Source: Hyphomicrobiales bacterium
GTDB lineage: Bacteria; Pseudomonadota; Alphaproteobacteria; Rhizobiales; NORP267
Assembly: GCA_021775875.1 (NCBI GenBank)
Contig: JAJFHA010000020.1
Span: 213,544-277,543 of the forward strand
Length of the DNA: 64,000 bases
Reading direction: 5' to 3'
Positions 4,115 to 54,859 of this stretch are shown one piece after another (position 1 is the first letter of the stretch; each line of letters opens with the position of its first letter). Below the pieces are notes generated by a model. The model was not told where the DNA came from. It saw only the letters and a list, made by a program, of their open reading frames with translations, and did not search any database. The translations under genes were made by a program, and so were the position numbers.

Positions 4115-5120
4115 ACTCTGGAAATCATCCGGCAAGCATTTGCTGGAAAAGACCGCGGACGGGTGGTTGAAAATCACGCCTGATTATCTGCGGGCTTATT
4201 ATACCCGGCCTGAAATTCACCCGGTGGAAGAATCTTGCGCCAACGAACATTCCTTGTTTGAAGCGCTGATGTCAGACCCCGAACGCGCTGTCGGGCAAGG
4301 TGAACTGGATGCCATTGCCGACAATGACGCCCGTGAAAATTACCGGATCATTTTGGGCTTCCGCGATTTTCTACTGGAGGCAGGCACAATAGAAGCCGCC
4401 TATCTTGGCATGATGAAGCAGGCCAATATTCAGGTGCCGCCGGTTTTTATCGATCAGATGGTCCACCTGGTTCTTCACAATATTCTGGAAGGCACCAAAG
4501 ATCCGATGCGGGCGCGGGCCGGGGAGTTGTTTTTCCGCGACCAGAATGTCAGTGTCGGCGAGGGGATGATGATGCTGGCGGACGAGGAAATTGTCAGCAT
4601 GCACGCCGAAACCGGCGGTCTCGGTGGGCTTGGTCAATTGCTGGTTGAATCAAACACGCCAATGCCAAGCATTGATCTGGATGTGCTGGATGAAGATAAT
4701 AAACAGCTTTATTGGGAGCGCAGCGACCGGTTTGATACGGTTCTCGATCTGCGTTTTGCCCAACCCGGTCTGGATGCTTTGGCTCGTGTGATTGAATCCT
4801 GGGTTTCGCATTTTCTTCGGGTAGAGACTCGCATCCAGCCCATGCAATCCATCAAGGATGAGCACTGGAGCTGGCATGTGGGGCTGGACATCGAGGCGTC
4901 TCGGATTTTAAACGCCCTGTATGAAGGGCGCGACGTCTCGCTTGAAGAAATGAATCGGATTTTGGCTTTATTCAAGTTGGAATTTCGCAATCCTGATGAT
5001 GCGGCACCTGCAATGCGCCATAAGCCGGTTTATCTGGGTCTCGCCATGAACGGGAATAACCGGGTTAAAATGAAACCGCAAAATCTGCTGATCAATTTGC
5101 CTCTGAATGTTGAGAGTTAA
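4104..5120 (+). CDS. DUF6352 family protein
   Basis: A 338-residue protein from ATG 4104, which gives the family-typical start MTPELWKSSGKHLL and overlaps the preceding stop. A longer reading from 4014 would run far into the upstream gene and adds no conserved sequence. Hallmarks are LRAYYTRPEIHPVEESC near residue 30 and a C-terminal segment rich in conserved His and Trp (DEHWSWHVGLDIEASRILNALY). No transmembrane or signal segment is apparent. It belongs to the set of uncharacterised proteins that travel with alphaproteobacterial formate dehydrogenase. Function unknown. Confidence 0.72.
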   Translation: MTPELWKSSGKHLLEKTADGWLKITPDYLRAYYTRPEIHPVEESCANEHSLFEALMSDPERAVGQGELDAIADNDARENYRIILGFRDFLLEAGTIEAAYLGMMKQANIQVPPVFIDQMVHLVLHNILEGTKDPMRARAGELFFRDQNVSVGEGMMMLADEEIVSMHAETGGLGGLGQLLVESNTPMPSIDLDVLDEDNKQLYWERSDRFDTVLDLRFAQPGLDALARVIESWVSHFLRVETRIQPMQSIKDEHWSWHVGLDIEASRILNALYEGRDVSLEEMNRILALFKLEFRNPDDAAPAMRHKPVYLGLAMNGNNRVKMKPQNLLINLPLNVES

Positions 5121-5144
5121 ACGTCGTCAGGGGAGCATGAAACC

Positions 5145-5468
5145 ATGGCCCGAAAGCCTGATACCGGATCATCATCGGCCATCGATGGCCGTACCGGCAA
5201 GATCGTCGCGGCCATCATTCTCACAATCGGTATCGGCGCTTTGGTTTATATGAACCGCGAAAGTTTTTTGCCGCCGCCACCCGTTGAAGAAGAGGTGGCT
5301 TTGCCGGAACTGGCTGCTTGTTTGGAGCGGCGTCTCGAAGCGGTCGAGACCATGCGTGTGGAAAACCTGCTCAACGACGCGCAATATGAACTGTTCAAAA
5401 GCCGGGCTGAAGCGTTTTGTATTTACAAACATGGCGATGCTGACAGCGCACCACCGGCGTCACAATAA
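5145..5468 (+). CDS. Small membrane-anchored protein of unknown function
   Basis: The product is 107 residues with one transmembrane helix at about residues 17-36 (KIVAAIILTIGIGALVYM). A proline stretch follows, then a soluble tail with two Cys (AACLERRLE and FCIYKHG). It follows DUF6352 by 24 bases and has a GGGGAGC ribosome site. The topology suggests a short cytoplasmic N-terminus and a periplasmic tail. I do not recognise the family; it appears to close the plus-strand run of formate dehydrogenase accessory genes. Confidence 0.6.
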   Translation: MARKPDTGSSSAIDGRTGKIVAAIILTIGIGALVYMNRESFLPPPPVEEEVALPELAACLERRLEAVETMRVENLLNDAQYELFKSRAEAFCIYKHGDADSAPPASQ

Positions 5469-5472
5469 TTTC

Positions 5473-5489
5473 TTAGGATAGGATCCTAA
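5473..5489. terminator. Inverted repeat between convergent genes
   Basis: TTAGGAT-AGG-ATCCTAA forms a 7-base-pair stem with a 3-base loop. It lies exactly where the plus-strand membrane protein gene and the minus-strand polyferredoxin gene converge. There is no T-run, so it is at best a weak transcription barrier or an RNA-stabilising hairpin. Confidence 0.3.
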
Positions 5490-7588
5490 TCTTCGTCTTT
5501 AAGGAAATCGTGACTTTTAAGAGCCTTGTCGCCATGTTCGCGAATATCTTCATCAGCGGCAAAATAATCTTCCGTCATCCGCACCCGTGGCCGGTCGCCG
5601 GCAACAAACGGGTTATTGGTTGATTCATTCTGGGTGATGATCCGGCAATCGTCACACATGCGGATCAACTGGGCACGGTCGTCGCCCATGAACATGGAAT
5701 GTTTGTCGGTAAGCATTTCAGCAATCCGCTCGATCGTACCTTTCGAGCCAAATTCTTTCCCGCACCGGATACATTCAGCCGGTTCTTCTTCGTGCAGAAT
5801 ACGCGGCGACAAGGCTTCCGTCGCAAAATTGAACCGGGGCTCCAGTGTAATCACTTTTTCCGGGCAGGTCGTGGCACAAAGACCACACTGGACGCAGGCC
5901 CCTTCGAGGAACCGCACCTGAGGTTTGTCCGGATTATCATGCAGCGCATCCGCCGGGCAACAGGAGACGCAGGCAAGACACAAGGTGCAGCCTTCAGATG
6001 CAATTTTGATCTGGCCATAGGGCGACAATTCGGGTAGCGCAATTGTGTCTGGCGCGTCGATAGCGCGTTCGTGAAGTTTTATGAATGCAGCGCGCGCGAT
6101 CGCCCGCTTGCCACCAACGGGAGCGAACATGCCCGGCTCATCTGATTTGGCCAGGCGCCGTCCTGCGCCGCCAAGTCTGCCAGCGGGAAGTCCGCGGAGA
6201 GCGGCCTCTACGATTTCCGGATCTTGTTCAATGACAGCGTGGATACGCGCAGCTTCGTCCAGATCGAGACCTGATACCACAGTATTGGCAAGCCCAATTT
6301 GTGCTTCGAGCGTCGCGTTTTCCTCTGGCTTTTCCGGGGACGCAAGCACCAGCACATGCTCGGCACCAGCAGCAAGTGCGCTGGCAAAAATCTCATGGCC
6401 AAGCTGGCTCGGGGATTGCACCGCGATGGGCAGTACGTTGATCGGCAGGCCATCTCCATAGCGGGCTATGGCACTGATAATTTCCGCACCATGCTCCTGG
6501 TCATGCATCAGCAATACAGGGGCCTTGCCACCCGCGCCCGCATAAGTGGAGAGCAGAATTTGCATGCGATTGATCAGGTCTTCGCGGCGCGGCAACGCAT
6601 AGCTGACAGCGCCTGTCGGGCAAGATGAACTGCACATGCCGCATCCACCGCACACGGCCGCATCGACCGCAATATAATCACCCGCCGGTCCAATCGCACC
6701 GGTTGGGCAGACATCGAGACAATTATGGCACCCAACCTGATTGTTGCGACTATGAGCGCAAATATCAGGATCGAAATCCACATAAAGTGGTTTTTCAAAT
6801 TCGCCGATCATGTCCGAAATTTCAAACATCGCTTTTGCAATGCCTGCCGGGTGCTTCGGATCGACGCGGAAATACCCGTCCCGTCGATCATGTCCCGTGA
6901 ATAAGGGGCTGTTGTCGGACATATCGAAAATCAGGTCGCATTTAGACGCCGCACCATCCTTGGCCATCAGAAATTGCAGCGATGATTTCGAGGACGCCAT
7001 GACAGGTGCATAATTGTCGACGACAATTTCAAATGCGCCCAGATTGCCCGAGGCAAGGGAAATCTTGCCGCGATACATCGGAACCGTAACATTGGTCGGC
7101 GGCGTCACGTCGTCGGCGTCGCTGAATAGCAAAGTTACATTGAGGCGGGTAGATAATTGCGCCGCTACGTCCAGCGCTTCCTGTCCGCCGCCATAAACCA
7201 GACAAACCCCGTCTGAGCGCAGTAGCATCGACCCGGTCGGTTTGGGGATGTGAATGGCTTCCGCCAATAAAGCGGCAATTTTTGCGGTGGGTTTTGCTTT
7301 GCCCGTACACCATCCGGCGCGTTCGCGAATATTGACAAAGGTGAGGTCGGTATTGCTGTCGGCTTCGTCGGCCATTTCCCTGAACAGAGGAGCTTCTTGC
7401 GTGCATCCAACCAGCAGCGGCTCGCCGCTTTTTAACTCATTATCAAAAGCTTCAATTTCTATCCGGCAGAGATTGTTGTAGACATGCGGCTTTTCTTCCG
7501 CACCAAGTGCTTTGGCTATTCCGCCGGAATCCAGCTCCATGGTCTGTTCGCAATTGCAGACCAGGACCTTGCGGTCCTCAATTTTCAT
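5486..7588 (-). CDS. Large multi-cluster 4Fe-4S ferredoxin-type protein of the formate dehydrogenase locus
   Basis: A 700-residue cytoplasmic iron-sulfur protein. Cysteine motifs consistent with [4Fe-4S] clusters occur at 287-294 (CHNCLDVCP), 313-323 (CGGCGMCSSSCP), 534-544 (CTLCLACVSCCP) and 565-575 (CVQCGLCATTCP). Additional CxxC pairs occur at 606-609 and 645-648, the latter resembling a zinc or rubredoxin-like site. The first 270 residues hold scattered Cys (11, 13, 41, 62, 94). This large polyferredoxin is a frequent neighbour of alphaproteobacterial formate dehydrogenases and probably moves electrons between the enzyme and another acceptor, or assists assembly. It is transcribed away from DUF3305. 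Confidence 0.85.
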   Translation of the reverse strand: MKIEDRKVLVCNCEQTMELDSGGIAKALGAEEKPHVYNNLCRIEIEAFDNELKSGEPLLVGCTQEAPLFREMADEADSNTDLTFVNIRERAGWCTGKAKPTAKIAALLAEAIHIPKPTGSMLLRSDGVCLVYGGGQEALDVAAQLSTRLNVTLLFSDADDVTPPTNVTVPMYRGKISLASGNLGAFEIVVDNYAPVMASSKSSLQFLMAKDGAASKCDLIFDMSDNSPLFTGHDRRDGYFRVDPKHPAGIAKAMFEISDMIGEFEKPLYVDFDPDICAHSRNNQVGCHNCLDVCPTGAIGPAGDYIAVDAAVCGGCGMCSSSCPTGAVSYALPRREDLINRMQILLSTYAGAGGKAPVLLMHDQEHGAEIISAIARYGDGLPINVLPIAVQSPSQLGHEIFASALAAGAEHVLVLASPEKPEENATLEAQIGLANTVVSGLDLDEAARIHAVIEQDPEIVEAALRGLPAGRLGGAGRRLAKSDEPGMFAPVGGKRAIARAAFIKLHERAIDAPDTIALPELSPYGQIKIASEGCTLCLACVSCCPADALHDNPDKPQVRFLEGACVQCGLCATTCPEKVITLEPRFNFATEALSPRILHEEEPAECIRCGKEFGSKGTIERIAEMLTDKHSMFMGDDRAQLIRMCDDCRIITQNESTNNPFVAGDRPRVRMTEDYFAADEDIREHGDKALKSHDFLKDED

Positions 7589-29423: not shown

Positions 29424-29646
29424 CATTTCTGTCGAATCATCTGTAGTCTGACTAACTAGCGGGGTCATCAGCGCATCGTGGGCCAAATTGCTTCACATCT
29501 ATGTGATCGCAAGTGAATCGATTTGTCCGAAATGGTTGATAGTCTGGACACTGTAATTCGAGGCCGGTGCTCGGGCTTTAATCAATCATGGCATGATATA
29601 CGCCAAGACCAACTTGGCAGCATTCATCCGTTTGGAGGGAAACCAG

Positions 29647-31143
29647 ATGAAATTTTCTAAGAAACAGCTTTTATCAACCGTTGCGGCGATGCCGTTGGTT
29701 GTGGGCATTGCCGTAGGCACTGCTGCAACCGGCGCAATGATGATTGCTGCAACTGAGGTTGCGATTGCAGCCTGTAATCCATGCAACCCGTGTGGCGCAT
29801 CAACTTGCGCTGCTTCCAACCCATGCGCGGCTTCAAACCCGTGTGCTGCTTCTGCGTGTGGCGCCTGCAGTGCTTCGACCTGCGGCGCATCCGCATGCGC
29901 AGCGTCCAACCCATGCGCGGCGTCTAACCCGTGTGCTGCATCAGCGTGTGGCGCCTGTGGTGCTTCGGCCTGCGGCGCATCCGCATGTGCAGCGTCCAAC
30001 CCATGCGCGGCTTCTAACCCGTGTGCTGCTTCAGCATGCGGTGCCTGCGGTGCTTCGGCCTGCGGTGCTTCGGCCTGCGGTGCATCCGCATGTGCAGCGT
30101 CCAACCCATGCGCGGCATCTAACCCGTGTGCTGCTTCTGCGTGTGGCGCCTGCGGCGCCTGCGGTGCTTCGGCTTGCGGCGCATCCGCATGTGCAGCGTC
30201 CAACCCATGCGCGGCTTCCAACCCGTGTGCTGCATCAGCGTGTGGTGCCTGCGGTGCTTCAGCCTGCGGCGCATCCGCATGCAATCCCTGTAATCCATGC
30301 GCGGCGTCAAATCCGTGTGGAGCATCTGCTTGTGGTGCGTGCAACCCGTGTGGCGCATCTGCTTGTGGTGCGTGCAACCCGTGTGGCGCTGCAGCGGCCA
30401 ACGTCAGCAAGGAATGCTTTGTTCCACGCTTGCATAATGCCGCCAGCAATCCATGTGCAGCTTCAAACCCGTGTGCTGCATCAGCTTGCAGGGCATGTGG
30501 TGCGTCAGCATGTAACCCTTGCAATCCGTGTGGGGCGTCGAACCCATGCGCAGCTTCCAATCCGTGCGCGGCATCAAACCCCTGTGGTGCATCTGCGTGT
30601 GGAGCATGTGGCCCGTGTGGCGCAAGCGGTGGCGGAGCTGAGTTGACTGATGCGGAAGCAGCGGCAGCGTATGATTGCCTCTACAGCGAAATGAAGGAAG
30701 CTTATGCCAATACCCGCATTCCAGCGACCCGCAATTGGCGCGCCTGGGCTACACAATTCTCCACAACACCTTATGTTTCGGCAACTCATGGCGGCCGTTA
30801 TGTGATGAATTATTCAAACACCATGGGCGCAAGAGCTTATGGCGAATATGAAGAAATGACTGAGATGCCCCGGTCTTCGGTGCTTATCAAAGACAGTTTC
30901 TCCGCCAATGCCGACGGCACCTTGTCGGTTGGTCCGCTGTTCCTGATGGAAAAAATGGGCCCTGGCTTCAATGCTGAAACCGCCGATTGGCGCTATTATA
31001 TGTTCACGCCGGACGGGTCTTTGTTCGGCGTAACCGGCGGTCAGAATTCAGCCGGCCTGGCCTTCTGTCATGAATGTCACGCGGCCATGGAAGACAATGA
31101 CCATATGTGGTTCCTGCCTGAAGAATACCGGGTTTCAAACTAG
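29647..31143 (+). CDS. Exported cysteine-repeat / cytochrome P460 fusion
   Basis: A 498-residue protein from ATG 29647, preceded by GGAGGG. Residues 1 to about 41 form a signal peptide. Residues 43-324 are a low-complexity domain of AASNPC, GASAC and GAC units with about 59 Cys, interrupted once by a non-repetitive stretch (ANVSKECFVPRLHNA). From about 340 to the end is a cytochrome P460 domain: GGRYVMNYSNTMG, SSVLIKDSF, GPLFLMEKMGPGF and the haem site CHECH at 474-478. P460 proteins handle hydroxylamine or nitric oxide. A haem domain on a long Cys-repeat arm is very unusual and suggests an extracellular metal- or redox-linked matrix protein. Confidence 0.85.
   Translation: MKFSKKQLLSTVAAMPLVVGIAVGTAATGAMMIAATEVAIAACNPCNPCGASTCAASNPCAASNPCAASACGACSASTCGASACAASNPCAASNPCAASACGACGASACGASACAASNPCAASNPCAASACGACGASACGASACGASACAASNPCAASNPCAASACGACGACGASACGASACAASNPCAASNPCAASACGACGASACGASACNPCNPCAASNPCGASACGACNPCGASACGACNPCGAAAANVSKECFVPRLHNAASNPCAASNPCAASACRACGASACNPCNPCGASNPCAASNPCAASNPCGASACGACGPCGASGGGAELTDAEAAAAYDCLYSEMKEAYANTRIPATRNWRAWATQFSTTPYVSATHGGRYVMNYSNTMGARAYGEYEEMTEMPRSSVLIKDSFSANADGTLSVGPLFLMEKMGPGFNAETADWRYYMFTPDGSLFGVTGGQNSAGLAFCHECHAAMEDNDHMWFLPEEYRVSN
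29770..30640 (+). repeat. In-frame tandem repeats coding for the Cys-rich arm
   Basis: The DNA consists of degenerate tandem units of about 90 bases. A marker sequence in each unit (GCAGCGTCCAACCCATG) recurs near 29899, 29989, 30094 and 30193, giving spacings of 90, 105 and 99 bases. The differences are whole codon blocks (an extra GASAC or GAC). Third-position changes between units show that they diverged under protein-level constraint. The last third is less regular. Confidence 0.85.
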
Positions 31144-31671: not shown

Positions 31672-33699
31672 TCAGGCGGAAATTGCCATGTTGTTTTTTT
31701 GAGTAATCGGCAGACACACCGTGAATGTGGTCCCTGAGCCGACAACACTTTCCAGAGAAATTTTGCCGCCATGTTGTTCGGTCAGTTGCTGGGCTATATT
31801 CAGGCCGATACCGGTGCCGACAATCCCTTCAGACGTAGAGGCCCTGTAAAAGCGCTCGAACATTTTATCGATCTCGTCTGCAGGTATTCCCACACCGCAG
31901 TCAGTTATGGATATGAGTACGTGCCCCTCACCTTGGCAACCTGCAATGCAGACTAGACCAGCTGTTGGTGAATATTTAACCGCGTTGGAAATCAGGTTAG
32001 TGAATATTTGTTCCAAAGCACCTGCATCTGCTTCAATAAAGTCTGGCATCGAATCCAGATCAACTTCAATTGTATGACTAGGACTTATCAGTCCTTGTCG
32101 TTTTGCAATTCCTGAAATGATGGACTTTAATTTACAATTTGTAATGGAGATTTTATACCCGCTTTCCTCCATTTTGGCGGATGCCAGCGTGCGGTCAATG
32201 AGTTCAGTCATGCGCGTAACAGCACCGCGAATATCGATAATTTTCGCGTCAACTTCCTCGCGATTCAGCTTGTCAAATTTCAGCCCAATCCGGCGCGCTG
32301 TGCTGTCAATTATTGTCAAAGGCGTACGGAAGTCGTGGGATACGGTCGAGACAAACTGGCTTTGCTGTTTGTTATAATGCTGCTCCAACTCAAGAGATGC
32401 CTGGAGTTGTTCGGATTTTTTGCGCAGTCGTGATGTTTGCTCGGCGACCATAATAGCAAGCTCTTCTCGATGCCGTGCCAGTTCCTGGTCTTTTGCTTTT
32501 TGTTCCGTTACATCGATAGTGAAGGCGAAGGACCCTATGGTTTCACCTTTAATGTTGCGCAGGCTTGTCGCATAGAAAATGGTGTCGATCTTGGTTCCGT
32601 CTTTTCGGACAAGGACAGGTTCGTAGGTTCGTCGGAAATTATGCTCCCGTTGGGCCATCTTCCGGCGCACCAACTCTGAGGATTCTAGGTTAACGATATC
32701 AATCGCCGGTTGGCCAATCAGTTCTTCACGTTCGTAACCAAGCATGTCGCAGAAGGCACGATTGACCCGGTTAAACTTACCATCAATATCTATCTGGGAA
32801 TAACCATGCTGGGTATTTTCCAGTGTGGCGGTCAAAAGCCCTTCACTAGACGTCAATTGACCAACCAATGCGTAGCCCCGGCGAAAATTCTTGTAGGTGC
32901 TGATCTGAAGTCCAATCAGGACGAGGGTGTAACTCATGATTTTCAGAATATGGGCCAGAATAAACGGGAAATCCGAGTACCCTTCAGAGTTTGACATGAC
33001 CATGGCATGAGCAACCACATTCAGCATCAAGGCCAAGGCCAACCAGAATTTAAAGGAGTTCGGGTGCCAGCCTCCGTGACCCTGCAATTTAAATAGCGCA
33101 AAGGTGAAAATCAGTGCGGGTAGCCATTCTTCAAAACTTCGAAGGAAAGGAAGGTTAAAATTATTGTCGCCCGCAAATATTTGGATCGGGTAGAAAAGAA
33201 TGAAAATACCGGCAGCGACAAACAGGCCGGTCGCAAAAAATACCTGTTTTTCAATCTGGTGAATTTTGTTGTCGTGGCTGTGCCAATCTGTGTCTTCCGG
33301 GCGCTCAGTATGTGTGGCTGCCAAGACCATCATGATGCCCAAAAACACACTCCCGTAAAACCAGCTTTCGGGACCAGATGATGACATGTCTCTTTCAGCA
33401 AATTGATTCAGGTGAGTTAGATCGGTCACCAAATAGAAAACATCCTGAAGGGTAAACCCGAGAAACCCCGCGCCAACATACAAAAAAACAGCCCGTCGTC
33501 TGTTGAAATACCAACCTAGAGAAGCGAAACCGATATAAATCATCAGAACCACAGTGATTGTCTTCAAAACAGTGCGGGAATATTCCGGAAATATCCAGGC
33601 TTCAGGGTTAGCAGCACATTTCACCATCAGCGCACCAACGATGGCGATGGTCAAAACGGTGACAATCGGCAACACTTTATCGTGTTTTGTGTCCATCAT
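31672..33699 (-). CDS. Hybrid-topology sensor histidine kinase (7TM-PAS-HisKA-HATPase)
   Basis: A 675-residue membrane kinase. About seven transmembrane helices fill residues 1-275 (a MASE-type sensor), followed by a PAS domain (about 285-400; NRVNRAFCDMLGYEREELIG), a coiled linker, HisKA with SHDFRTPLTIID and a HATPase domain with NLISNAVKYSP, DCGVGIP and GTGIGLNIAQQL. It is encoded 19 bases after the response regulator, so the two form a two-component pair. The inducing signal is unknown; the multi-helix sensor suggests a membrane or small-molecule cue. Confidence 0.92.
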   Translation of the reverse strand: MMDTKHDKVLPIVTVLTIAIVGALMVKCAANPEAWIFPEYSRTVLKTITVVLMIYIGFASLGWYFNRRRAVFLYVGAGFLGFTLQDVFYLVTDLTHLNQFAERDMSSSGPESWFYGSVFLGIMMVLAATHTERPEDTDWHSHDNKIHQIEKQVFFATGLFVAAGIFILFYPIQIFAGDNNFNLPFLRSFEEWLPALIFTFALFKLQGHGGWHPNSFKFWLALALMLNVVAHAMVMSNSEGYSDFPFILAHILKIMSYTLVLIGLQISTYKNFRRGYALVGQLTSSEGLLTATLENTQHGYSQIDIDGKFNRVNRAFCDMLGYEREELIGQPAIDIVNLESSELVRRKMAQREHNFRRTYEPVLVRKDGTKIDTIFYATSLRNIKGETIGSFAFTIDVTEQKAKDQELARHREELAIMVAEQTSRLRKKSEQLQASLELEQHYNKQQSQFVSTVSHDFRTPLTIIDSTARRIGLKFDKLNREEVDAKIIDIRGAVTRMTELIDRTLASAKMEESGYKISITNCKLKSIISGIAKRQGLISPSHTIEVDLDSMPDFIEADAGALEQIFTNLISNAVKYSPTAGLVCIAGCQGEGHVLISITDCGVGIPADEIDKMFERFYRASTSEGIVGTGIGLNIAQQLTEQHGGKISLESVVGSGTTFTVCLPITQKNNMAISA

Positions 33700-33718
33700 A
33701 ATTGGTCCTAGTTGGCGG

Positions 33719-34591
33719 TCAGGATGCCATCAAGACCGGAGTCCCGCTCGCATTGTCCAGCGAGTTGATTTGTGCTGCAAATTCATCGCCGCTGCATGGC
33801 ATTTGAATGATCGCGTCGAACCAGCTTTCGTGTGAGGGGTTCAACCGGTTCTGATTTAATGGCGGCACCAACAACACAATCGGAAATGCACATTCGCGCT
33901 CGGCTTTAATCAACCGCACCATCATCGAAGCGGGCATATCTGACGTGTTTAACGAAACAATCACCAAGTCCGGCGCAATATTATCCACCGACGCCTGAAA
34001 GACGACACCGCTATCCATTTTGATAACCTGATGGTTCTGTGCCTCCAGCGTTTCTCTTATTTCAGACAGATCCACTTCATTATTCGAAATGGTAACGACC
34101 ATCATTTGCGGTGTTTCTTCGGTTGGTTTGGCATGTGCGGAATCCACCGCATGATCTAGAGATTTGGATAAGGCGTTGTAAAGTTTAAGTAATTGGTTTT
34201 GTTTTTGTTGCTCCATGCGCTTCACCTGATGGAGCCTCGATCTCACCGTGGCAAGCATCATTTCATAGTCAATAGGCTTGGTTAGATAATCGTCTGCCCC
34301 CAATGACTTACCCTTGATAATATCTTGCCGGTCCGCTAGGGCAGACAGAAACACAACCGGAATATCTGCGAGATCAGGATGGTTATCGCGAAGCGCGATC
34401 AACATCTCGTGGCCATTCATTTTTGGCATTGTGATATCTGACAAAACCAAGTCTGGCTTGTTCGCTATAATTGAAGCCAGTCCTTCGGCACCATCGCACG
34501 CCTGCAGGACTTCAAATCCATAGCTCTCCAGTTCCATCGCAACATCATTGCGAATTACAGGTTCGTCTTCAACGATAAGTATCTTCTTCAT
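33719..34591 (-). CDS. Response regulator with true receiver and C-terminal pseudo-receiver
   Basis: A 290-residue protein starting MKKILIVEDEPVIRND at ATG 34591. The N-terminal receiver has the acidic pair E9/D10, phospho-acceptor D52 (LSDITMPKMNG) and the conserved K of LTKPID. A linker follows, then a second receiver-like fold (MMVVTISNNEVDLSEI onward) with hydrophobic strands but no phospho-acceptor Asp. No DNA-binding or enzymatic output domain is present, so it probably works through protein interaction with the kinase encoded next or with a third partner. Confidence 0.88.
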   Translation of the reverse strand: MKKILIVEDEPVIRNDVAMELESYGFEVLQACDGAEGLASIIANKPDLVLSDITMPKMNGHEMLIALRDNHPDLADIPVVFLSALADRQDIIKGKSLGADDYLTKPIDYEMMLATVRSRLHQVKRMEQQKQNQLLKLYNALSKSLDHAVDSAHAKPTEETPQMMVVTISNNEVDLSEIRETLEAQNHQVIKMDSGVVFQASVDNIAPDLVIVSLNTSDMPASMMVRLIKAERECAFPIVLLVPPLNQNRLNPSHESWFDAIIQMPCSGDEFAAQINSLDNASGTPVLMAS

Positions 34592-35032
34592 CCTCGCCCC
34601 GAAAAATCTTAAAGTATTAATATGCAAAGATTACAGGGGAAGAGATTAATAATAAGTTGTTCACCTTGCATGAAGAATTCTATGTGAACTGGGGTCAATA
34701 TTGGCTCAAAGGAGCAAATGAGCGTGTTTGCTCCGTTCGATATATCTAACTGTTATTCTCAAGGCCCAGTAGGCATGATTTTCGGGTAGATTATAGTCCG
34801 TTCGTCCTCCAAACCAATCCGCTTTCGTCGTTGATGGTCCCATACTCTAAGCGAAGAGGGTTGTGCCTCAGCAACCATCACCTGTTGCAAGCGTAATAAA
34901 TACGTATATCGAAATGGCAGTTGCGTCGCATTGCAAAGTAGACAGGGACAATTCCCGGGCAAATTGGGACGTGTGGGCAGGTTAGGCTGTTCGCCCTTGT
35001 TTGACTATTCGGTATAAGGCATAGACACCATC
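34592..35032. other. Intergenic region upstream of the two-component and MFS genes
   Basis: This 441-base gap lies between divergent genes and should hold their promoters. It contains a perfect inverted repeat at 34711-34734 (listed separately). I see no protein on either strand with a ribosome site or composition like the neighbours, and no tRNA or known RNA motif. Confidence 0.55.
34711..34734. repeat. Perfect 8-base inverted repeat
   Basis: GGAGCAAA-TGAGCGTG-TTTGCTCC lies in the gap 120 bases upstream of the response regulator gene. The half-site spacing of 16 bases centre to centre fits binding by a dimeric regulator on one face of the helix. It could be an autoregulatory operator or a short structured RNA element. 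Confidence 0.4.
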
Positions 35033-45971: not shown

Positions 45972-47108
45972 TCAAATGCCCTGAAGGGTCTCATTGATCA
46001 GATGATCAACAACCAGACACAATGCTTCTGTTTGTGTCTGGTTGGTGGCGATGGCCTCGTTAAAAATTGCCAATTGCCGGTCAGCGCTGGTGCCACGCTT
46101 GACGATTGTGCGGGCATGGTTGACTTCATCGACACAGTCGAAAAATTCAGCGTCCTCTGCGACAAGAACAATCAACTCATCTGTCAGGTCGGCGAACGGC
46201 ACAATCTCGCCCATGCCGAAATCAACCAATCCTTCCTTGACCCCGTAGCGCTGGGCGCGCCAACGATTTTCCATGACAAGAAATCTGGAATAGGTGCGCC
46301 AACGCTGGTTTTGGCCCCGCAGCCGCCACAACATACGGGTCAGGCACCGGTATAGAGCGGCGATCGAAATCGTATCATCAATCAGGGTGCAAACGTCAGT
46401 AACCCGCATTTCCAGGGTTGGAAATTTGGCACTCGGTCGCAGGTCCCACCAGATTTTGGTGGCGTCTTCGATCACCCCGGCGCTGACAAGTGTGGAAACC
46501 GTTCGCTGAAATTCACTGTAGCTGTCAAATTGCTCCGGCAAGCCGGTGCGTGGCAATTCATCGAAAACCGCCAACCGGTATGATTTCAGTCCGGAAACGC
46601 GCCCCTGCCAGAATGGTGACGATGTGGAAAGGGCCAGCAAGTGGGGCAGGAAATAACTCAACTGGCCAAAAATATCGTTGCGCAGGGATTCATTTTCAAT
46701 CGCCACATGTACATGCATCCCACAAATGACCATACGCCGAACCACCACCTGGAGGTCTTTGGCGAGCATTGTGTAGCGGTCTTTCTCGGTCGGATGCTGG
46801 TCTGACCAGACGGCGAAAGGGTGAGTGGAGACGGCAAGCGGAGCAAGGCCGTATTTCCCGGAAATTTCCGCAATTGTTTTGCGCAAATGGGCAAGCTGCT
46901 GACGAGCTTCCTGCAAAGTGCTGCAAACCGGTGTTCCGATTTCGATCTGGCAGCGCAGAAATTCCGGCGTCACATGATCTCCGAGCGCAGCGGCGCAATC
47001 CTGCATCAATTCTTTTGGTGGATCAGCGGCGAGGTCGCGGCTCTCCTTGTCGACAAGGAGATATTCTTCCTCGATCCCGATCGTAAAACTCGGTTCAGGC
47101 CATCTCAT
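45972..47108 (-). CDS. Carboxylate-amine ligase (GCS2/YbdK family)
   Basis: A 378-residue ATP-grasp-like ligase from ATG 47108 (MRWPEPSFTIGIEEEYLLVD). The GIEEEY motif, HVHVAIENE and LRPSAKFPTLEMRVTD are the hallmarks of the YbdK branch of the glutamate-cysteine ligase 2 superfamily. YbdK has weak glutamate-cysteine ligase activity; the physiological reaction of this branch is not settled. An earlier start at 47144 adds non-conserved residues. Confidence 0.88.
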   Translation of the reverse strand: MRWPEPSFTIGIEEEYLLVDKESRDLAADPPKELMQDCAAALGDHVTPEFLRCQIEIGTPVCSTLQEARQQLAHLRKTIAEISGKYGLAPLAVSTHPFAVWSDQHPTEKDRYTMLAKDLQVVVRRMVICGMHVHVAIENESLRNDIFGQLSYFLPHLLALSTSSPFWQGRVSGLKSYRLAVFDELPRTGLPEQFDSYSEFQRTVSTLVSAGVIEDATKIWWDLRPSAKFPTLEMRVTDVCTLIDDTISIAALYRCLTRMLWRLRGQNQRWRTYSRFLVMENRWRAQRYGVKEGLVDFGMGEIVPFADLTDELIVLVAEDAEFFDCVDEVNHARTIVKRGTSADRQLAIFNEAIATNQTQTEALCLVVDHLINETLQGI

Positions 47109-47173
47109 CCTTGGAGCTTTGCACAAATAGTCTCTTGCAAACAATGGGGAATTTGGAAGCCCCTGAGACGGGG

Positions 47174-47905
47174 TTAAATAAACCGCCCAAGCAGATCACC
47201 GATCAGATAAGCCATCAACGCTGCACCAAGGCCTATGCCAAGAGTCTCCAGCCCTGACCAAAGCCAATGCTGGGTCGACCAGCGGCTTTTGGCTGACCCG
47301 ATTAGAACAAAAACCATTCCGGTCATGATTGTCGCCAAAATCGCAGCTTGGTCCAGACCGATTATGAATGGGATAAGGGGAACGAAGCCGGCCAAAACAA
47401 AAGCCAGAAATGTAGCCATGGCAGATTTTAGCGGCGACCGCAGGACGTTCGACAAGCCATATTCCTCGGTCAGCATCAGATCAAGCCAATGCTCTTTTGA
47501 AGATGTGGCGATTGCAACCATTTGGTCCAGATCATCTCCCCTAAAACCCTTGGCCAGATAAATCTGGCGGATCTCTTCACGCTCACCTTCCGGGTAAAGG
47601 TCAATGTGCCGTTCTTCAATTTTTCTAATCCGGCGATAATCATCCAACTCGCTTTTTGTGCCGGAATAATTGGCCGCCGCCATGGAGAATCCGTCCGCCA
47701 GCAGATTTGCGGCACCAAGAATAAGCACGACCCGGATCGACATATTGGCCCCGACGACGCCTGCAACGATGGCAAATGTGGTGATGGCACCGTCAATCCC
47801 CCCATAAACCCAATCGCGCAGATAATTGATGCGCGGTCCGACAGCAAGCCGCTCCGCGATAGCGTCGGGGTGATGGGAATGATCCAGATGAGATTTTTCA
47901 GGCAT
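47174..47905 (-). CDS. VIT1/CCC1 family membrane transporter
   Basis: A 243-residue membrane protein with about five helices. The first helix has the VIT signature DWVYGGIDGAITTFAIVAGVVGA, and the second AANLLADGFSMAAANYSGTKSE. The loop between helices 2 and 3 is rich in Glu and resembles the metal-binding domain of VIT1 iron/manganese transporters. A His-rich N-terminus (HLDHSHH) could also bind metal. It probably exports or stores Fe2+ or Mn2+. Confidence 0.88.
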   Translation of the reverse strand: MPEKSHLDHSHHPDAIAERLAVGPRINYLRDWVYGGIDGAITTFAIVAGVVGANMSIRVVLILGAANLLADGFSMAAANYSGTKSELDDYRRIRKIEERHIDLYPEGEREEIRQIYLAKGFRGDDLDQMVAIATSSKEHWLDLMLTEEYGLSNVLRSPLKSAMATFLAFVLAGFVPLIPFIIGLDQAAILATIMTGMVFVLIGSAKSRWSTQHWLWSGLETLGIGLGAALMAYLIGDLLGRFI

Positions 47906-47967: not shown

Positions 47968-49971
47968 TCAATCAATTTCATATCCCCTTCGATCAAACAA
48001 GGGGCGCAATTTTTGTTGGATATCCTGCTTTTCTTCATCGCCCAGCTTCTCGTGTTTGTTGCGCCGATAATGGGGCCGACTTGATAGGTAATTTTCAATA
48101 TTCCTGCCAAATTCCTCTGAGAATTCCAGGCCAATTTCGCCGTAAATACGTTTCACTTCAACAATCGTTCGCGCCGTGAAATCCGAGTATCTTGTCTCAG
48201 CAATCTGGCTCGGCGAAAGGGCTTTGGACTGCTCTTCATAAGCATCTTCGATCCGGAGGTAATTTTCCGCTAATAGTCGATCTGTAAATTGCTCCCCGGA
48301 TTTTGCAAATTGTAATTGAAACAAGGGGATGAAATCTTGCTCGATCAGTACACTGGACTGGTAGACATCTAAGGGGTTCCGATGGATATGGATGAATTTG
48401 GCGGTTGGATATAATTCAGTCAATATTTCAATTCGCGCCGTATGATAGGGGCTTTTAAGAAGCGGCTTTCCGGATTTGAACAGCACCAATTTTTTCAAAA
48501 ATATTGACAATGCCTGCTTCCATTTGTCTCGTTCCCGTGCGGTCATTTGGTCTGGATAAATAAATCGGTCAAAATGCCGTCTTTCGCGTGGAAAAGAAAA
48601 TGACCAATAAGGAGAGCAATGCGTATCAAGCGCGATCGCGAATTCGTCCTCATTGGTGGTATCCAGGGAAATCTCAACAGAATCGAACGGACGTTTCCAT
48701 GGCAAAAGCGCACCTGCCAAAAGATGCGTGATGCGGCCAAAGCCCAGAAACCCGGTGGGGTTGAAAACCTGATACCCGCGCGGCGCGATGAATTGTGGGT
48801 CCAGCGCCAAAATGTCGTGTAGAAATGTTGTGCCCGAACGATGCACGCCAAGAATAATAACCGGGTCTTCGATGGTTTTATTACGTAGAAACAGCGGCAG
48901 TAAAACTCGTTCAGGAAAATTGATGATCGAGTTTGCTGTTGAAGCCAAAAGAATGAAAAGTAGCCGCGGCAGATAAGCAGGGTGTACCCTGAACCGCGCC
49001 TGCCAAAGAACCCGAAGCCAAATGTCGATCGAAGCCAGAACGCAGAGATTGGACACCGGGTTGAACTGGACCAGAGATTTGAAGAACGATTTGCCGTGAG
49101 CGGCGCGGCTTTCCCGGCAGGCTGGTTGATCAACTGCAGATGATATCCCGGGTCGGCGTTTGAGGCGTACAAGATAGAAAATAATTGCGCCAACTAGAAC
49201 AATCCACAAAAGTACCGAATGGCGAATATCATCACTGGGCGCGATAAATCTCGAAAACTCGGCATGCGTGCTTTTGAGGATCACGACAGGGGCTTTTTTT
49301 TGAATAATATCAACGATCAGCCAACCACCAACGAGCCCGATCGGGACCACAAGATTGCCGTGGTAAATACGCGCCAGATGCAGTGTTATGCCAACCAGAA
49401 ACATGGCAAAAATGGTTTTGACCGTATAATACGGTTCTTGCCACGTAGACGCATCAAAACCAAAGGTGAGCGCATAGAATAAAGCGGCTGCAACAAGGCC
49501 GAAGACCTTGAATCTTTCAAATAATTCCGTACCAACATATCCACGATAAATTATTTCCTGCAAATATGCCGCCAGTATTCCTGCGACAGGTGCGGTCAAT
49601 CCGGTACTGATATAGCGAGGGAGTGATCGAGGGGCGACGAGCCTAAACGCGCCAACCTGAAAAGCTAAAAAATACAGAACCACCGGGATAGCCACCCCGA
49701 TCAAGAGGGCCAGCAAGAAGCGCTTGCGCCATTCCGGGTCCGCGTCCAGACCGAAATGCGCCAGCGGCAACGGGCTTCTTGCCATGATCCGGATAGCCAT
49801 TGAAGCGCCGATCAGCAGCAAGAGGAAGCGGCCGGTGCCGCGCACATCGGATAGATGGTTAGAGAGCGTAAAAATCGAACCGATTGCTGCGTCCAGCAAA
49901 AGAATTCCGGCCATGACGCAAAGCCACAAAAGAAGCCCGGCGGCTCTTGGGTTTCTTTTGATCCAACTCAT
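47968..49971 (-). CDS. Fusion of a CPBP-like membrane domain and a sulfotransferase domain
   Basis: A 667-residue protein. Residues 1 to about 275 have eight or so membrane helices and resemble CPBP (Abi) intramembrane proteases. Motif 1 is QEIIYRGY at 139-145 (first Glu replaced by Gln), motif 2 reads ALTFG without the usual His, and His occurs at 198 and 204. After a soluble linker, a sulfotransferase domain begins with the PAPS loop GVHRSGTTFLHDILALDP (about 375-392) and has the 3'-phosphate-binding region FIHIHRNPLDVYQSS. It looks like a membrane-tethered sulfotransferase; proteolytic activity of the first part is doubtful. I do not know this fusion. Confidence 0.8.
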   Translation of the reverse strand: MSWIKRNPRAAGLLLWLCVMAGILLLDAAIGSIFTLSNHLSDVRGTGRFLLLLIGASMAIRIMARSPLPLAHFGLDADPEWRKRFLLALLIGVAIPVVLYFLAFQVGAFRLVAPRSLPRYISTGLTAPVAGILAAYLQEIIYRGYVGTELFERFKVFGLVAAALFYALTFGFDASTWQEPYYTVKTIFAMFLVGITLHLARIYHGNLVVPIGLVGGWLIVDIIQKKAPVVILKSTHAEFSRFIAPSDDIRHSVLLWIVLVGAIIFYLVRLKRRPGISSAVDQPACRESRAAHGKSFFKSLVQFNPVSNLCVLASIDIWLRVLWQARFRVHPAYLPRLLFILLASTANSIINFPERVLLPLFLRNKTIEDPVIILGVHRSGTTFLHDILALDPQFIAPRGYQVFNPTGFLGFGRITHLLAGALLPWKRPFDSVEISLDTTNEDEFAIALDTHCSPYWSFSFPRERRHFDRFIYPDQMTARERDKWKQALSIFLKKLVLFKSGKPLLKSPYHTARIEILTELYPTAKFIHIHRNPLDVYQSSVLIEQDFIPLFQLQFAKSGEQFTDRLLAENYLRIEDAYEEQSKALSPSQIAETRYSDFTARTIVEVKRIYGEIGLEFSEEFGRNIENYLSSRPHYRRNKHEKLGDEEKQDIQQKLRPLFDRRGYEID

Positions 49972-50127: not shown

Positions 50128-51519
50128 ATGACAAAAAAGTGGTCAGCCAATAGTTGGCGTTCGCTTCCGGCAGTTCAATTGCCGGCATACCCGGACACAA
50201 ATGCTCTGGAAGAGGTTGAAAATCGCTTGAGCGGTTTCCCGCCGCTTGTTTTTGCCGGTGAAGCCCGCAAGCTGAAGCGGCAATTGGCGCAAGTAGCAGC
50301 AGGCGATGCGTTCCTCCTGCAGGGCGGTGATTGTGCTGAAAGTTTTGCCGAACATTCCGCCGATAATATCCGCGATTTTTTTCGGGTCTTCCTGCAAATG
50401 GCGGTGGTTCTTACCTACGCGGCCTCGTCCCCGGTTGTAAAAGTCGGGCGCATCGCGGGTCAGTTTGCCAAACCGCGTTCGTCTGATTTTGAAGAGCAGG
50501 GCGGCAAATCCCTGCCCAGTTACCGTGGTGATATTATCAACGCGATCGAGTTTGAAGACGCTGATCGCTTGCCTGATCCCCAGCGCATGTTGATGGCGTA
50601 TCGCCAATCTGCCGCAACCCTGAACCTGATCCGGGCTTTTGCCCAGGGCGGGTATGCCAACCTCGCCCATGTCAACGAATGGACGCTCGGGTTTTTGAAA
50701 GACAGCCCCGCCGGTCATCGTTATCAGGAACTGGCCGGTCGGATTGATGAGACGCTTGCCTTCATGCGGGCTTGTGGCATTGACCCGGAAACCGCACCAC
50801 AATTGCGCGCGACCGATTTTTTCACCAGCCACGAAGCCTTGCTGCTTGGCTATGAGCAATCCATGGCGCGGCTCGATTCAACATCCGGCGACTGGTACGC
50901 AACATCTGGCCATATGGTCTGGATCGGCGACCGGACCCGCCAGCCGGATCACGCCCATGTGGAATTTTGTAGGGGTATCAAAAACCCGATCGGCGTTAAA
51001 TGTGGCCCGTCGCTTGACCCGGACGAGTTGCTGCAATTGCTTGAAATTCTCGACCCGGAAAACGAACCGGGCCGGATTACCCTGATCGCGCGTTATGGTG
51101 CTGGCAAAGTCGCCGAACATCTGCCGAAGCTGATCCGCAAGGTTAAATCAGCGGGCCGCAACCCGGTCTGGTCATGCGACCCCATGCACGGCAACACGAT
51201 CAAGGCAGCGACCGGGTTCAAGACCCGTCCGTTCGATCTGGTTCTGCGCGAAGTCAGTGACTTTTTCGATGTTCATCAGGCAGAGGGTACCCATGCTGGC
51301 GGCATCCATATCGAAATGACCGGCCAGAATGTGACCGAATGCACCGGCGGTGCCAAAGCTATTTCAGATGCGGATTTGCAGGACCGGTATCACACCCATT
51401 GCGACCCGCGTCTGAATGCCGACCAATCGCTTGAACTGGCGTTTCTGGTCGCAGAGCGTTTGAAATCCGAACGTGAAGCACGCGGCCTTCCGACTAGGGT
51501 TGTCGCTGTCGGCGAATAG
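50128..51519 (+). CDS. 3-deoxy-7-phosphoheptulonate synthase, class II
   Basis: A 463-residue class II DAHP synthase. Marks are [15 protein letters not shown] near the N-terminus, [42 protein letters not shown] and [12 protein letters not shown], which include the metal-binding Cys, His, Glu and Asp. It condenses phosphoenolpyruvate and erythrose-4-phosphate as the first step of the shikimate pathway. It has its own leader hairpin, so regulation by aromatic amino acids is possible. Confidence 0.95.
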
Positions 51520-52279: not shown

Positions 52280-53320
52280 ATGTCGCCCCATGCCCAATTG
52301 ATCAAAAGCCTGCCAAAAGCTGAAGTCCATATCCATATTGAAGGCAGTCTTGAGCCTGAAATGCTGTTTTCACTGGCACAGCGCAACGGTATCTCGTTGC
52401 CCTTTGGTTCAGTGAATGAAGTGCGCGATGCGTATGATTTCTCGAACCTTCAGGATTTTCTCGATCTCTATTATCAAGGCATGTCGGTGCTCCAGACCGA
52501 GCAGGATTTTTATGACCTGATGCGTGCCTATCTGGAGCGGGTCCACGCCGACAATGTCAAATACACAGAAATTTTCTTCGATCCTCAGGGACACTTACCT
52601 AGGGGTGTGGGTTTCGATACCTGTCTCGACGGGTTATGGCGCGCCATCGGAGACTGCGAGCGGGAATTCGGTATCAGGGCAAAACTGATCATGTGCTTTC
52701 TGCGCCATCTGGATGAAGCAGATGCGGAGCGGACCCTCGATCTGGCGCTTGTCCACAAAGATCGGATTATCGGCGTTGGACTGGATTCGTCCGAACTCGG
52801 TCATCCACCTGAAAAATTCAAATCAGTATTTCGCCGTGCCCGCGACGAAGGCTTCAAGCTGGTCGCCCATGCCGGAGAGGAGGGGCCGCCGGACTATATC
52901 TGGCAGGCACTGGATATTTTGGGGGTGGACCGGATCGACCACGGTAACCGGGCGCTGGAAGATGATGCGTTGGTCAAGCGCCTCGCCGCAGACAAGATGT
53001 CTTTGACGGTCTGCCCGCTCTCAAACCTGCGCCTTCGGGGCATTTCTCAAATGGCAGATCACCCGATCCGACGAATGCTGGATATGGATTTGAAGCCATG
53101 TGTCAATTCCGATGATCCATCCTATTTCGGCGGATACATGAACGATAATTTTTCCGCTCTGGATAAGGCTCTGGATTTCAAAGAGGACGAAGTTTTTGCG
53201 CTGGCCCGTAACGGCTTTGAAGCCATGTTTTTAGGTTCAGACGAAAAAAGCAAAGCACTTGAAAATTTCGATGCGGGCGTTTCTACCGTAATGGCTCAAG
53301 CGCCGCGTTCTCAGCCCTGA
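52280..53320 (+). CDS. Adenine deaminase (adenosine deaminase-like family)
   Basis: A 346-residue amidohydrolase. The zinc ligands are seen in KAEVHIHIEGSLEPEM, HAGEEGPPDYIWQAL and NSDDPSYFGGYM. The GPPDYIWQAL segment after HAGEE is typical of the fungal/bacterial adenine deaminase branch (Aah1 type) and not of true adenosine deaminase. The reaction is adenine to hypoxanthine. The start at 52280 has GGAG nine bases upstream; a longer version from 52238 is possible. Confidence 0.85.
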   Translation: MSPHAQLIKSLPKAEVHIHIEGSLEPEMLFSLAQRNGISLPFGSVNEVRDAYDFSNLQDFLDLYYQGMSVLQTEQDFYDLMRAYLERVHADNVKYTEIFFDPQGHLPRGVGFDTCLDGLWRAIGDCEREFGIRAKLIMCFLRHLDEADAERTLDLALVHKDRIIGVGLDSSELGHPPEKFKSVFRRARDEGFKLVAHAGEEGPPDYIWQALDILGVDRIDHGNRALEDDALVKRLAADKMSLTVCPLSNLRLRGISQMADHPIRRMLDMDLKPCVNSDDPSYFGGYMNDNFSALDKALDFKEDEVFALARNGFEAMFLGSDEKSKALENFDAGVSTVMAQAPRSQP

Positions 53321-53774
53321 TCCGGATGAAAAGCACACCCGCATTGAGAATTGTAAATAGAAACGCAAACCATCCAAGTCCGAATATCGCGGGCATGCAG
53401 GCAATTTCCGCCATGACGAGCACATAATTTGGATGTTTTAGAAATTTGTACGGACCGCGAGCAACTAATGTTTCGCCAGGCACAATAATGATCCGGGTGG
53501 TCCATCTTTTGCCAAGGCTCAGCAAAATCCAGAACCTGAAAAACTGAAAAATCACGTACAGCCCAAGCAATGGCCAGACAATGTCGTGGCCGGGTGCCAG
53601 CCACCAAAGCCCGGCAAGCCACAATCCATGCACCGCCACGATTAGGGGGTAATGCCCCGCACCGACTTCGTGGCCCCCAGCGGCAATAAGGCGCGCGGTG
53701 TTGCGCCGTGATACTATTAATTCAGACAGCCGTTGCAGGGTCACAAAAGCCAGTATCAGGATTTGCCAACTCAC
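53283..53774 (-). CDS. Isoprenylcysteine carboxyl methyltransferase-like membrane protein
   Basis: A 163-residue membrane protein with four to five helices and the ICMT-type motif RGPYKFLKHPNYVLVMAEI near the C-terminus. The family methylates small molecules at the membrane; bacterial forms often sit beside type III polyketide synthases, as here, where its start overlaps the PKS stop by four bases. It likely methylates the polyketide product. Its 3' end overlaps that of the adenine deaminase gene by 38 bases on the opposite strand. Confidence 0.85.
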   Translation of the reverse strand: MSWQILILAFVTLQRLSELIVSRRNTARLIAAGGHEVGAGHYPLIVAVHGLWLAGLWWLAPGHDIVWPLLGLYVIFQFFRFWILLSLGKRWTTRIIIVPGETLVARGPYKFLKHPNYVLVMAEIACMPAIFGLGWFAFLFTILNAGVLFIRIRAENAALEPLR

Positions 53775-54859
53775 TCAGGTAATCCCGGCATCAGCGTGAT
53801 CATGCTCATGGTGAAGCCAGGCCCAAGCGCCGAGAGGAGCAGGCGGCCGGATAGCTTTTCTTCAAGCACGGAACGCAGGACAAAAAGTGCGGTGGGGGCC
53901 GACATATTGCCGTATTTACGCAAAATCGCCCGTTCCGTTTGAAGCTGACCAGCTTCCAGTTGCAGAGAGGTTTCAAGGGCTTCGAGAACCTTCGATCCAC
54001 CCGGATGAAACGCATAGCCGTCCAGATCTGCGCGGGTGAGGTCATTGGCGTTGAGAAAATCATCAATCGCGGCGGGAACTTTTTCTTTTGCCAATTGCGG
54101 GATACTGCGCGAAAAAATGGCGTTAAAGCCTTCATCGTCGATCCGCCATCCCATGATATCCAGAGTGTCCGGCCAGGTATGTTCGCGCAGAAATTCAAAC
54201 GTGGCGCGTTGCTGATATTGCGGGGCTTTGGAGACAATAGCTGCCGCCGCACCGTCGGCAAAGAGAGCGGACGCGACAATATTGGCTTTGGTCAATTGGT
54301 CTGTGCGCACCGCCATGCTGCAAATTTCGAGCGCCACAATCAATACCGTTTCATCGCTGCTTTCTGCGAGACGAGCCGCAAGTGAAAGGCCTGAAACGCC
54401 ACCTGCGCATCCAAGCCCAAACAGGGGCACGCGTTTCACATCCTGGCGAAATCCCATTGATGTGAGCATGATCGCTTCAATGCCGGGTGTTGCTATTCCC
54501 GTTGAGCACACCATGACAATGGTATCGATATCGCTGGCCTTCAGATCAGCGTCGGCAAGCGCCGCCGCGACCGCATCGGCGTAAAGCGTTTTGGCACCTG
54601 CAACAAAAGTTTCGCTGCGATCAGCCCATCCATGGTCGGCTTCATACCAGTCGATGGGGCAAATAAGATGCCGGGTCTCGATCCCGGTATTGGGAAATAC
54701 TTTCGCCATCCGGTCGAAATCGGCGATCCGGCTTGCAAAAATGCTGCGGGTAAAATCTTCTGCCTGTTCTTGCGAAATAACGTGCGGCGGGACAGCAATT
54801 CCCATGCCGACAATCCCCGCCCGTGTCGGTGCATTTGAAATTTCGTACATGCGGTTCAT
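53771..54859 (-). CDS. Type III polyketide synthase (chalcone/alkylpyrone synthase-like)
   Basis: A 362-residue homodimeric ketosynthase-like enzyme. Catalytic Cys151 lies in LFGLGCAGGVSG, His in YAFHPGGSKV and Asn in KYGNMSAPTALFVL. It condenses malonyl-CoA with an acyl-CoA starter to make pyrones, resorcinols or phloroglucinols. The adjacent methyltransferase suggests an O-methylated alkylpyrone or alkylresorcinol lipid. Start at 54859; a second ATG follows three codons later. Confidence 0.92.
   Translation of the reverse strand: MNRMYEISNAPTRAGIVGMGIAVPPHVISQEQAEDFTRSIFASRIADFDRMAKVFPNTGIETRHLICPIDWYEADHGWADRSETFVAGAKTLYADAVAAALADADLKASDIDTIVMVCSTGIATPGIEAIMLTSMGFRQDVKRVPLFGLGCAGGVSGLSLAARLAESSDETVLIVALEICSMAVRTDQLTKANIVASALFADGAAAAIVSKAPQYQQRATFEFLREHTWPDTLDIMGWRIDDEGFNAIFSRSIPQLAKEKVPAAIDDFLNANDLTRADLDGYAFHPGGSKVLEALETSLQLEAGQLQTERAILRKYGNMSAPTALFVLRSVLEEKLSGRLLLSALGPGFTMSMITLMPGLPE

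Follow-up and report, generated by a model that had tools for sequence, protein, structure and literature searches.

The window analysed here is a stretch of 64,000 nucleotides from a Hyphomicrobiales bacterium. On its reverse strand lies an open reading frame of 667 codons, which runs from ATG to stop in a single uninterrupted frame. The features of this gene, and of the genes beside it, are listed below.

45972..47144, reverse strand: YbdK-type carboxylate-amine ligase (NF010039), next downstream; same place in 3/3 genus genomes
47174..47905, reverse strand: VIT1-family membrane protein (PF01988), the next gene, across a gap of 62 bp; neighbour in 3/3 genus genomes
47968..49971, reverse strand: fused gene, pseudo-CPBP membrane domain plus Sulfotransfer_3, 667 aa (open reading frame, Pfam, orthologues)
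47971..49062, reverse strand: sulfotransferase region with a hydrophobic N-terminal helix of its own, aa 304-667 (free-homologue alignment)
48115..48864, reverse strand: Sulfotransfer_3 Pfam match, aa 370-619 (PF13469, E 1.6e-25)
48826..48840, reverse strand: RSGTT loop, aa 378-382 (columns of free relatives)
49159..49971, reverse strand: N-terminal membrane domain, aa 1-271, with eight hydrophobic segments (hydropathy)
49318..49332, reverse strand: motif 3 position VGGWL, aa 214-218 (HxxxN, His and Asn lost; alignments)
49324..49596, reverse strand: Rce1-like (CPBP) Pfam match, aa 126-216 (PF02517)
49465..49479, reverse strand: motif 2 position FYALT, aa 165-169 (FxxxH, His lost; HMMER, hhalign)
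49540..49560, reverse strand: motif 1 QEIIYRG, aa 138-144 (EExxxR, first Glu replaced by Gln; invariant in 3/3 orthologues)
50128..51519, forward strand: class II DAHP synthase (PF01474), divergent neighbour

An earlier note had described the product as a CPBP-like membrane domain fused to a sulfotransferase. This description holds, since both Pfam families (PF02517 and PF13469) match all three fusion orthologues identified below. In the window protein, PF02517 scores 27.5 bits (cut-off 22.4) and PF13469 scores 91.1 bits (cut-off 27), the latter across profile positions 1-216 of 216. PF00685 also matches (E 1.1e-07). NCBIfam gave only weak matches far under cut-off, such as MrtS for the CPBP half (19.3 bits, cut-off 130) and NoeE for the sulfotransferase half (13.3 bits, cut-off 500). 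The solved structures nearest by sequence, 2z6v (E 0.0015) and 2zq5 (E 0.0077), were both deposited as 'putative uncharacterized protein'. An AlphaFold model built from a 3-row alignment had a mean pLDDT of 32. Each of the three fusion genes has start codons in the interval aa 265-345; a shared one with a clear ribosome-binding site, from which the sulfotransferase alone might be released, was not seen there.

We found the full-length protein in 3 of the 41 relatives' genomes searched: the window's own and both genomes of the same genus. The two orthologues are 60% and 50% identical to the window protein, and each occupies one uninterrupted frame. All three genes are ATG-started frames without stops. 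The earlier note had considered that two separate genes might have been joined artificially; here this would mean a lost stop codon between neighbours. The two domains do occur as separate genes outside the genus (e.g. in genome G005). However, three genomes with 50-60% identity share the same fused frame at the same place. Hence, we dismiss an assembly artefact as scarcely credible.

Searches beyond the genus were made in overlapping sets of genomes, with scoring confined to the top three candidates of each genome. No other full-length fusion was found among 385 class genomes (only the window's own), 397 order genomes (none past the three of the genus) or 398 phylum genomes (none past the window's own). 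A contig-database scan gave matches in the same two relatives only, the Hyphomicrobiales MAGs NORP267 and OFTM169. Among 1584 frames of at least 120 codons from the collected loci, a profile of the N-terminal domain matched the fusions and one free CPBP protein (locus L038) only. Scans of viral and phage sequences gave no match. Plasmids gave 35 matching records, 0 of them covering 80% of the query; the 15 listed of these 35 hit the sulfotransferase half only. A literature search, with most subscription papers outside its reach, found no fusion of a CAAX protease/CPBP domain to a sulfotransferase. We conclude that the fusion is conserved in one small genus and was seen nowhere else among the genomes searched. 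The parts are known; what is new is their combination.

CPBP domains joined to other partners were encountered. A further search of class genomes gave a capped list of CPBP frames; among the seven longest on it, none had a sulfotransferase domain and three were exosortase E fusions. The exosortase E/protease family (TIGR04162) resembles the fusion in that a CPBP domain is joined to another domain. It differs in having the CPBP domain at the C-terminus, in scoring 56-67 bits against PF02517 and in having another membrane domain as the partner. The NCBIfam ABC permease/CPBP model NF041647 gave weak matches only. Separately, three frames of 542-1049 codons, measured stop to stop, carry CPBP toward the C-terminal side and have no other Pfam match (L189 756-3902, L190 643-2295 and L191 644-2269).

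None of the three genus genomes has a PF02517 match other than the fused domain, which scores 32.6, 28.1 and 28.1 bits. In the same family, genomes G003 and G005 each have a CPBP frame, of 322 and 299 codons respectively. Profile-profile comparison (hhalign) of the three fusion N-domains with seven free CPBP proteins gave a probability of 93.8 (E 1.7e-07) over 134 columns. Hydropathy, averaged over the three orthologues with overlapping windows merged by eye, places eight hydrophobic segments at about aa 13-31, 49-67, 85-103, 123-141, 154-172, 184-202, 206-224 and 252-270. Segment 4 holds motif 1, and segment 7 holds motif 3. In the available part of one report, myxosortase and MmRce1 are described with the same placement of EExxxR and HxxxN (PMC11980579). 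The fusion resembles CPBP (type II CAAX) proteases of family PF02517 in its overall profile and in carrying an EExxxR-type motif in segment 4. It differs in the loss of the first Glu, both His and the Asn, and in the attached sulfotransferase.

At motif 1, Gln138 replaces the first Glu while Glu139 and Arg143 are kept; QEIIYR is found in all three orthologues. The motif 2 His aligns to Thr169 (HMMER) or Phe170 (hhalign), and none of the three orthologues has His at 169 or 170. One of them (G002) has His171, directly after position 170 and two residues after 169. Before aa 300, the window protein has His only at 39, 72, 198, 204, 236, 251 and 292. At motif 3, Val214...Leu218 stands opposite HSGWN of the free CPBP protein from L038; the three orthologues carry Val, Thr or Ala at 214 and Leu at 218. 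Among the seven free CPBP proteins aligned, the motif 2 and motif 3 His are kept in 7/7, and Glu-Glu at motif 1 in 6/7. Hence, EExxxR with both Glu residues, the motif 2 His and HxxxN, as expected of an active CPBP protease, are all missing from the fusion. The window protein and both orthologues lack four catalytic residues: the first Glu, the motif 2 His, and both conserved residues of HxxxN (His and Asn).

These results bear out most of what had been proposed from the window protein. The YRG motif is indeed kept, as part of a QEIIYRG invariant in 3/3. One Glu has been lost, and so has the second-motif His, with residues 73-197 free of His. The extent of decay had been understated; the losses of Glu and of the motif 2 His were recognised, the loss of HxxxN went unmentioned. 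The suggestion that the domain is an anchor rather than a protease gains good support from the four positions lost in all three proteins. By Pfam and profile similarity, assignment of the N-terminal domain to the CPBP/Rce1 family is well supported, as is the prediction that it is not an active protease. It is very improbable that this half is still a protease or hydrolase working with replaced residues (Gln138-Glu139-Arg143 plus His198/His204). Such an enzyme would fit the invariance of Glu139 and Arg143 in 3/3 and the existence of a free CPBP protein with Gln-Glu at motif 1 (L170). However, the L170 protein retains both His, whereas the fusion has neither of these, nor the Asn.

The L170 protein (4780-5574) was noted in its own right. 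It combines Gln-Glu at motif 1 and both His with the absence of Asn four residues past the motif 3 His. It may represent a CPBP subfamily with altered catalysis. Since it shows the same Gln-Glu, the change from Glu to Gln at motif 1 is perhaps older than the fusion.

The sulfotransferase half was compared with free Sulfotransfer_3 (PF13469) proteins of Alphaproteobacteria. These align with the fusion from about aa 316, over the whole region and the hydrophobic stretch ahead of the domain, at 27-32% identity. They are encoded by open frames of mostly 365-465 codons with no CPBP domain in front. The alignment held 51 distinct rows, namely the three fusions and 48 free relatives. All 13 columns identical in 48/48 free relatives are kept in the three fusions (G375, R378, G380, T381, P424, E441, P461, K506, P522, A524, R531, P533 and S539). 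The likely nucleotide-binding residues are among them. The RSGTT motif at aa 378-382 is the phosphosulfate loop; among the free relatives R378, G380 and T381 are found in 48/48 and T382 in 47/48. Since the invariant columns are kept, we read the domain as a probably active enzyme. APS kinase is encoded in 3/3 genus genomes. Consistent with the earlier claim of a PAPS-dependent sulfotransferase, then, are the family, the kept columns and the APS kinase, activity itself being predicted.

Several near-invariant columns are replaced in all three fusions. These are Phe372 (47/48 free relatives), His376-Trp377 (45/48 each), Gln440 (43/48), Pro602 (47/48) and Leu613 (46/48). Column 439, which is Pro in 47/48 free relatives, differs in the window protein. 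The replacements may reflect an altered acceptor site. In the tree, the fusions differ from the free proteins in forming one clade on a long branch of their own (1.92). Locus L148 appeared as sister of the fusion sulfotransferases with support of 81; this placement was flagged as a long-branch join and rejected.

Further hydrophobic windows were detected beyond segment 8, at about aa 305-323, 332-350 and 402-423. Eight segments are an even number, which fits a cytosolic C-terminus. This argument changes if any of the further windows crosses the membrane. The extra windows, together with the changed near-invariant columns, slightly weaken the predictions of topology and activity. In addition, the free relatives already have a hydrophobic stretch before the domain; membrane contact may thus not require the CPBP half.

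The fusion gene diverges more rapidly than the genes beside it. Its identity to the two orthologues is 60% and 50%, against 72-95% for the flanking genes (DAHP synthase 95/89%, the G002 value spanning 214 residues; VIT1 90/82%; YbdK 94/83%; hydrolase 88/72%). Within the fusion, the N-terminal 111 residues and the interdomain stretch are the most variable, at 26-45% identity. Between species, identity is 52-59% in the CPBP core, 56-72% in the sulfotransferase and 26-41% in the stretch between. In every segment compared, pN is below pS, with pS near saturation. For the CPBP core, pN is 0.27-0.32 against a pS of 0.69-0.75. Hence, the N-terminal domain is still constrained.

These observations bear on whether the pseudo-CPBP domain does more than tether the enzyme. 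It could be an anchor only, binding no substrate, for a sulfotransferase with a soluble, polysaccharide or protein acceptor. That would agree with the lost catalytic residues, with an N-terminal domain that evolves faster than the sulfotransferase and with free sulfotransferase relatives that have no CPBP domain. Against this, in the three sequences available, which are few, the core keeps YLQEIIYRG and LHLARIYHGNLV.PIGL..GWL, with Glu139, Arg143, His198 and His204 invariant in 3/3, and a plain anchor does not obviously need these. We consider this explanation possible, if somewhat unlikely.

CPBP-like folds without catalytic residues have been reused elsewhere. The examples given in the available part of one source are LnsB (lipoprotein N-acylation), APH-1 and SpdC (PMC7387801). 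These differ from the fusion in being separate proteins with partners, not joined to a transferase. According to the accessible text of another report, SpdC and Abx1 bind histidine kinases (PMC5854430). By analogy, the pseudo-CPBP domain could bind another membrane protein and so bring the sulfotransferase to it. In order genomes, free sulfotransferase genes are often found no more than 8 kb from one for a PAS hybrid histidine kinase; this was so in 7 of 19 contexts outside the hopanoid-linked clade described below (L071, L072, L073, L129, L131, L132 and L134). We take these kinases to be CckA-like. However, no such kinase gene is near the fusion in the stretch read (L074), and the kinase-adjacent sulfotransferases form a different branch of the tree. 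Recruitment by complex formation is improbable.

Elsewhere in the window, 31672-34627 (reverse strand) encodes a PAS histidine kinase whose membrane region resembles MASE3 at a score just under cut-off, and a response-regulator gene lies directly upstream of it. Positions 29593-31143 (forward strand) encode a protein of 516 aa whose C-terminal part matches cytochrome P460 just over cut-off.

Gene order around the fusion was then considered. In all three genus genomes the fusion lies between the divergent DAHP synthase gene and the VIT1 gene, followed by YbdK and a hydrolase. Of eight VIT1 loci read from relatives, four have a divergent DAHP synthase gene next to VIT1 and lack the fusion (L140, from same-family genome G005, L141, L143 and L144). 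YbdK directly follows VIT1 in L144 and is about 4.6 kb away in L140. Because half of these loci have the block without the fusion, the DAHP synthase/VIT1 block probably predates the fusion, which was inserted later. The neighbours hence tell little of function, and we dropped attempts to derive a role from them, the DAHP synthase/VIT1 pairing occurring without the fusion.

A pair of genes for a type III polyketide synthase and an ICMT-like methyltransferase lies at 53283-54859 (reverse strand), 3-5 kb from the fusion gene. It resembles pairs that produce methylated phenolic lipids. The polyketide synthase is present in 3/3 genus genomes, and is 90% and 67% identical in the two relatives. In both of these (G001 and G002) it is on a different contig from the fusion. 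In the fusion stretches L074, L011 and L012, a search at E <= 1e-15 detected neither the synthase nor the methyltransferase; contig ends are near there, so that a linkage may have been missed.

The acceptor may be hydrophobic. Candidates are phenolic lipids, quinones, glycolipids, lipid-linked sugars and lipoproteins. The mycobacterial sulfotransferase Stf3 is linked to sulfomenaquinone. In outline it parallels the role proposed for the fusion, sulfate transfer to a membrane lipid; to our knowledge Stf3 has no CPBP domain. What was available of the literature on bacterial sulfated lipids held nothing related-looking. A carotenoid or squalene acceptor is also a candidate; SQS_PSY matches in the genus are above the cut-off of 26 bits (77, 60 and 86 bits), and weaker than the 170 bits of same-family genomes G003 and G005. 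A hopanoid substrate was considered, since one related clade of free enzymes belongs to hopanoid gene clusters, and judged unlikely, because a hopene cyclase match was found in 0/3 genus genomes. The fusion also lies outside the hopanoid-linked clade of sulfotransferases. Hopene cyclase matched in 0/10 order genomes tested and 5/5 class genomes tested.

This clade of free Sulfotransfer_3 proteins merits separate description. In the tree it comprises 14 rows at support 88, of which 13 group at 99; genomic contexts cover 11 of the 14. In 9 of these 11 contexts a gene for HpnA, the hopanoid-associated epimerase, lies within 8 kb (L076, L078, L079, L080, L136, L137, L139, L168 and L169), the HpnA query having been taken from L078, itself among the nine. 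Outside the clade this was so in 0/19 contexts, the fusion context L074 included. A beta-propeller-like protein is encoded between the sulfotransferase and HpnA in 7/11 contexts, two with an SGL or arylesterase match. Other hpn genes are often nearby. HpnB (L080) and HpnN (L078) passed NCBIfam cut-offs, while HpnA, HpnD and HpnM gave strong matches just or somewhat under cut-off. The arrangement points to hopanoids that are sulfated, or to a sulfation step connected with them. A literature search of the same reach as before found no report of sulfated hopanoids. These hopanoid-cluster sulfotransferases could prove more valuable than the fusion.

For the fusion, the interpretation that we favour, with a probability of a little under 0.6, is an active cytosolic PAPS sulfotransferase anchored by a non-proteolytic CPBP relic that, tentatively, holds a hydrophobic acceptor. 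Briefly, the C-terminal domain would be PAPS-dependent and active in the cytosol, as its kept invariant columns suggest. The N-terminal relic of the CPBP/Rce1 fold would fix the enzyme in the inner membrane. More tentatively, the same domain would receive or hold the acceptor beside the sulfotransferase active site. The acceptor would be a lipid, or a molecule linked to one, that bears a free hydroxyl. Activity, topology, an acceptor in the membrane and its presentation by the pseudo-protease domain are all inferred. The fusion probably sulfates something held in the membrane, much as the earlier note had suggested. A more specific proposal, which we regard as rather unlikely, is that the CPBP-fold domain, its proteolysis lost, has become the lipid-receiving half of a two-part membrane enzyme that makes an undescribed sulfated lipid, with the kept Glu139-Arg143 and the invariant His198/His204 lining the acceptor chamber.

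Catalytically dead proteins of the CPBP fold are known, and their roles are mostly guesswork. Here, a partner enzyme of known chemistry would indicate which reaction the pseudo-protease domain assists. Were the domain an anchor only, the fusion would be a minor domain rearrangement. On the reading that we favour, some sulfated constituent of the membrane would be expected in this lineage.
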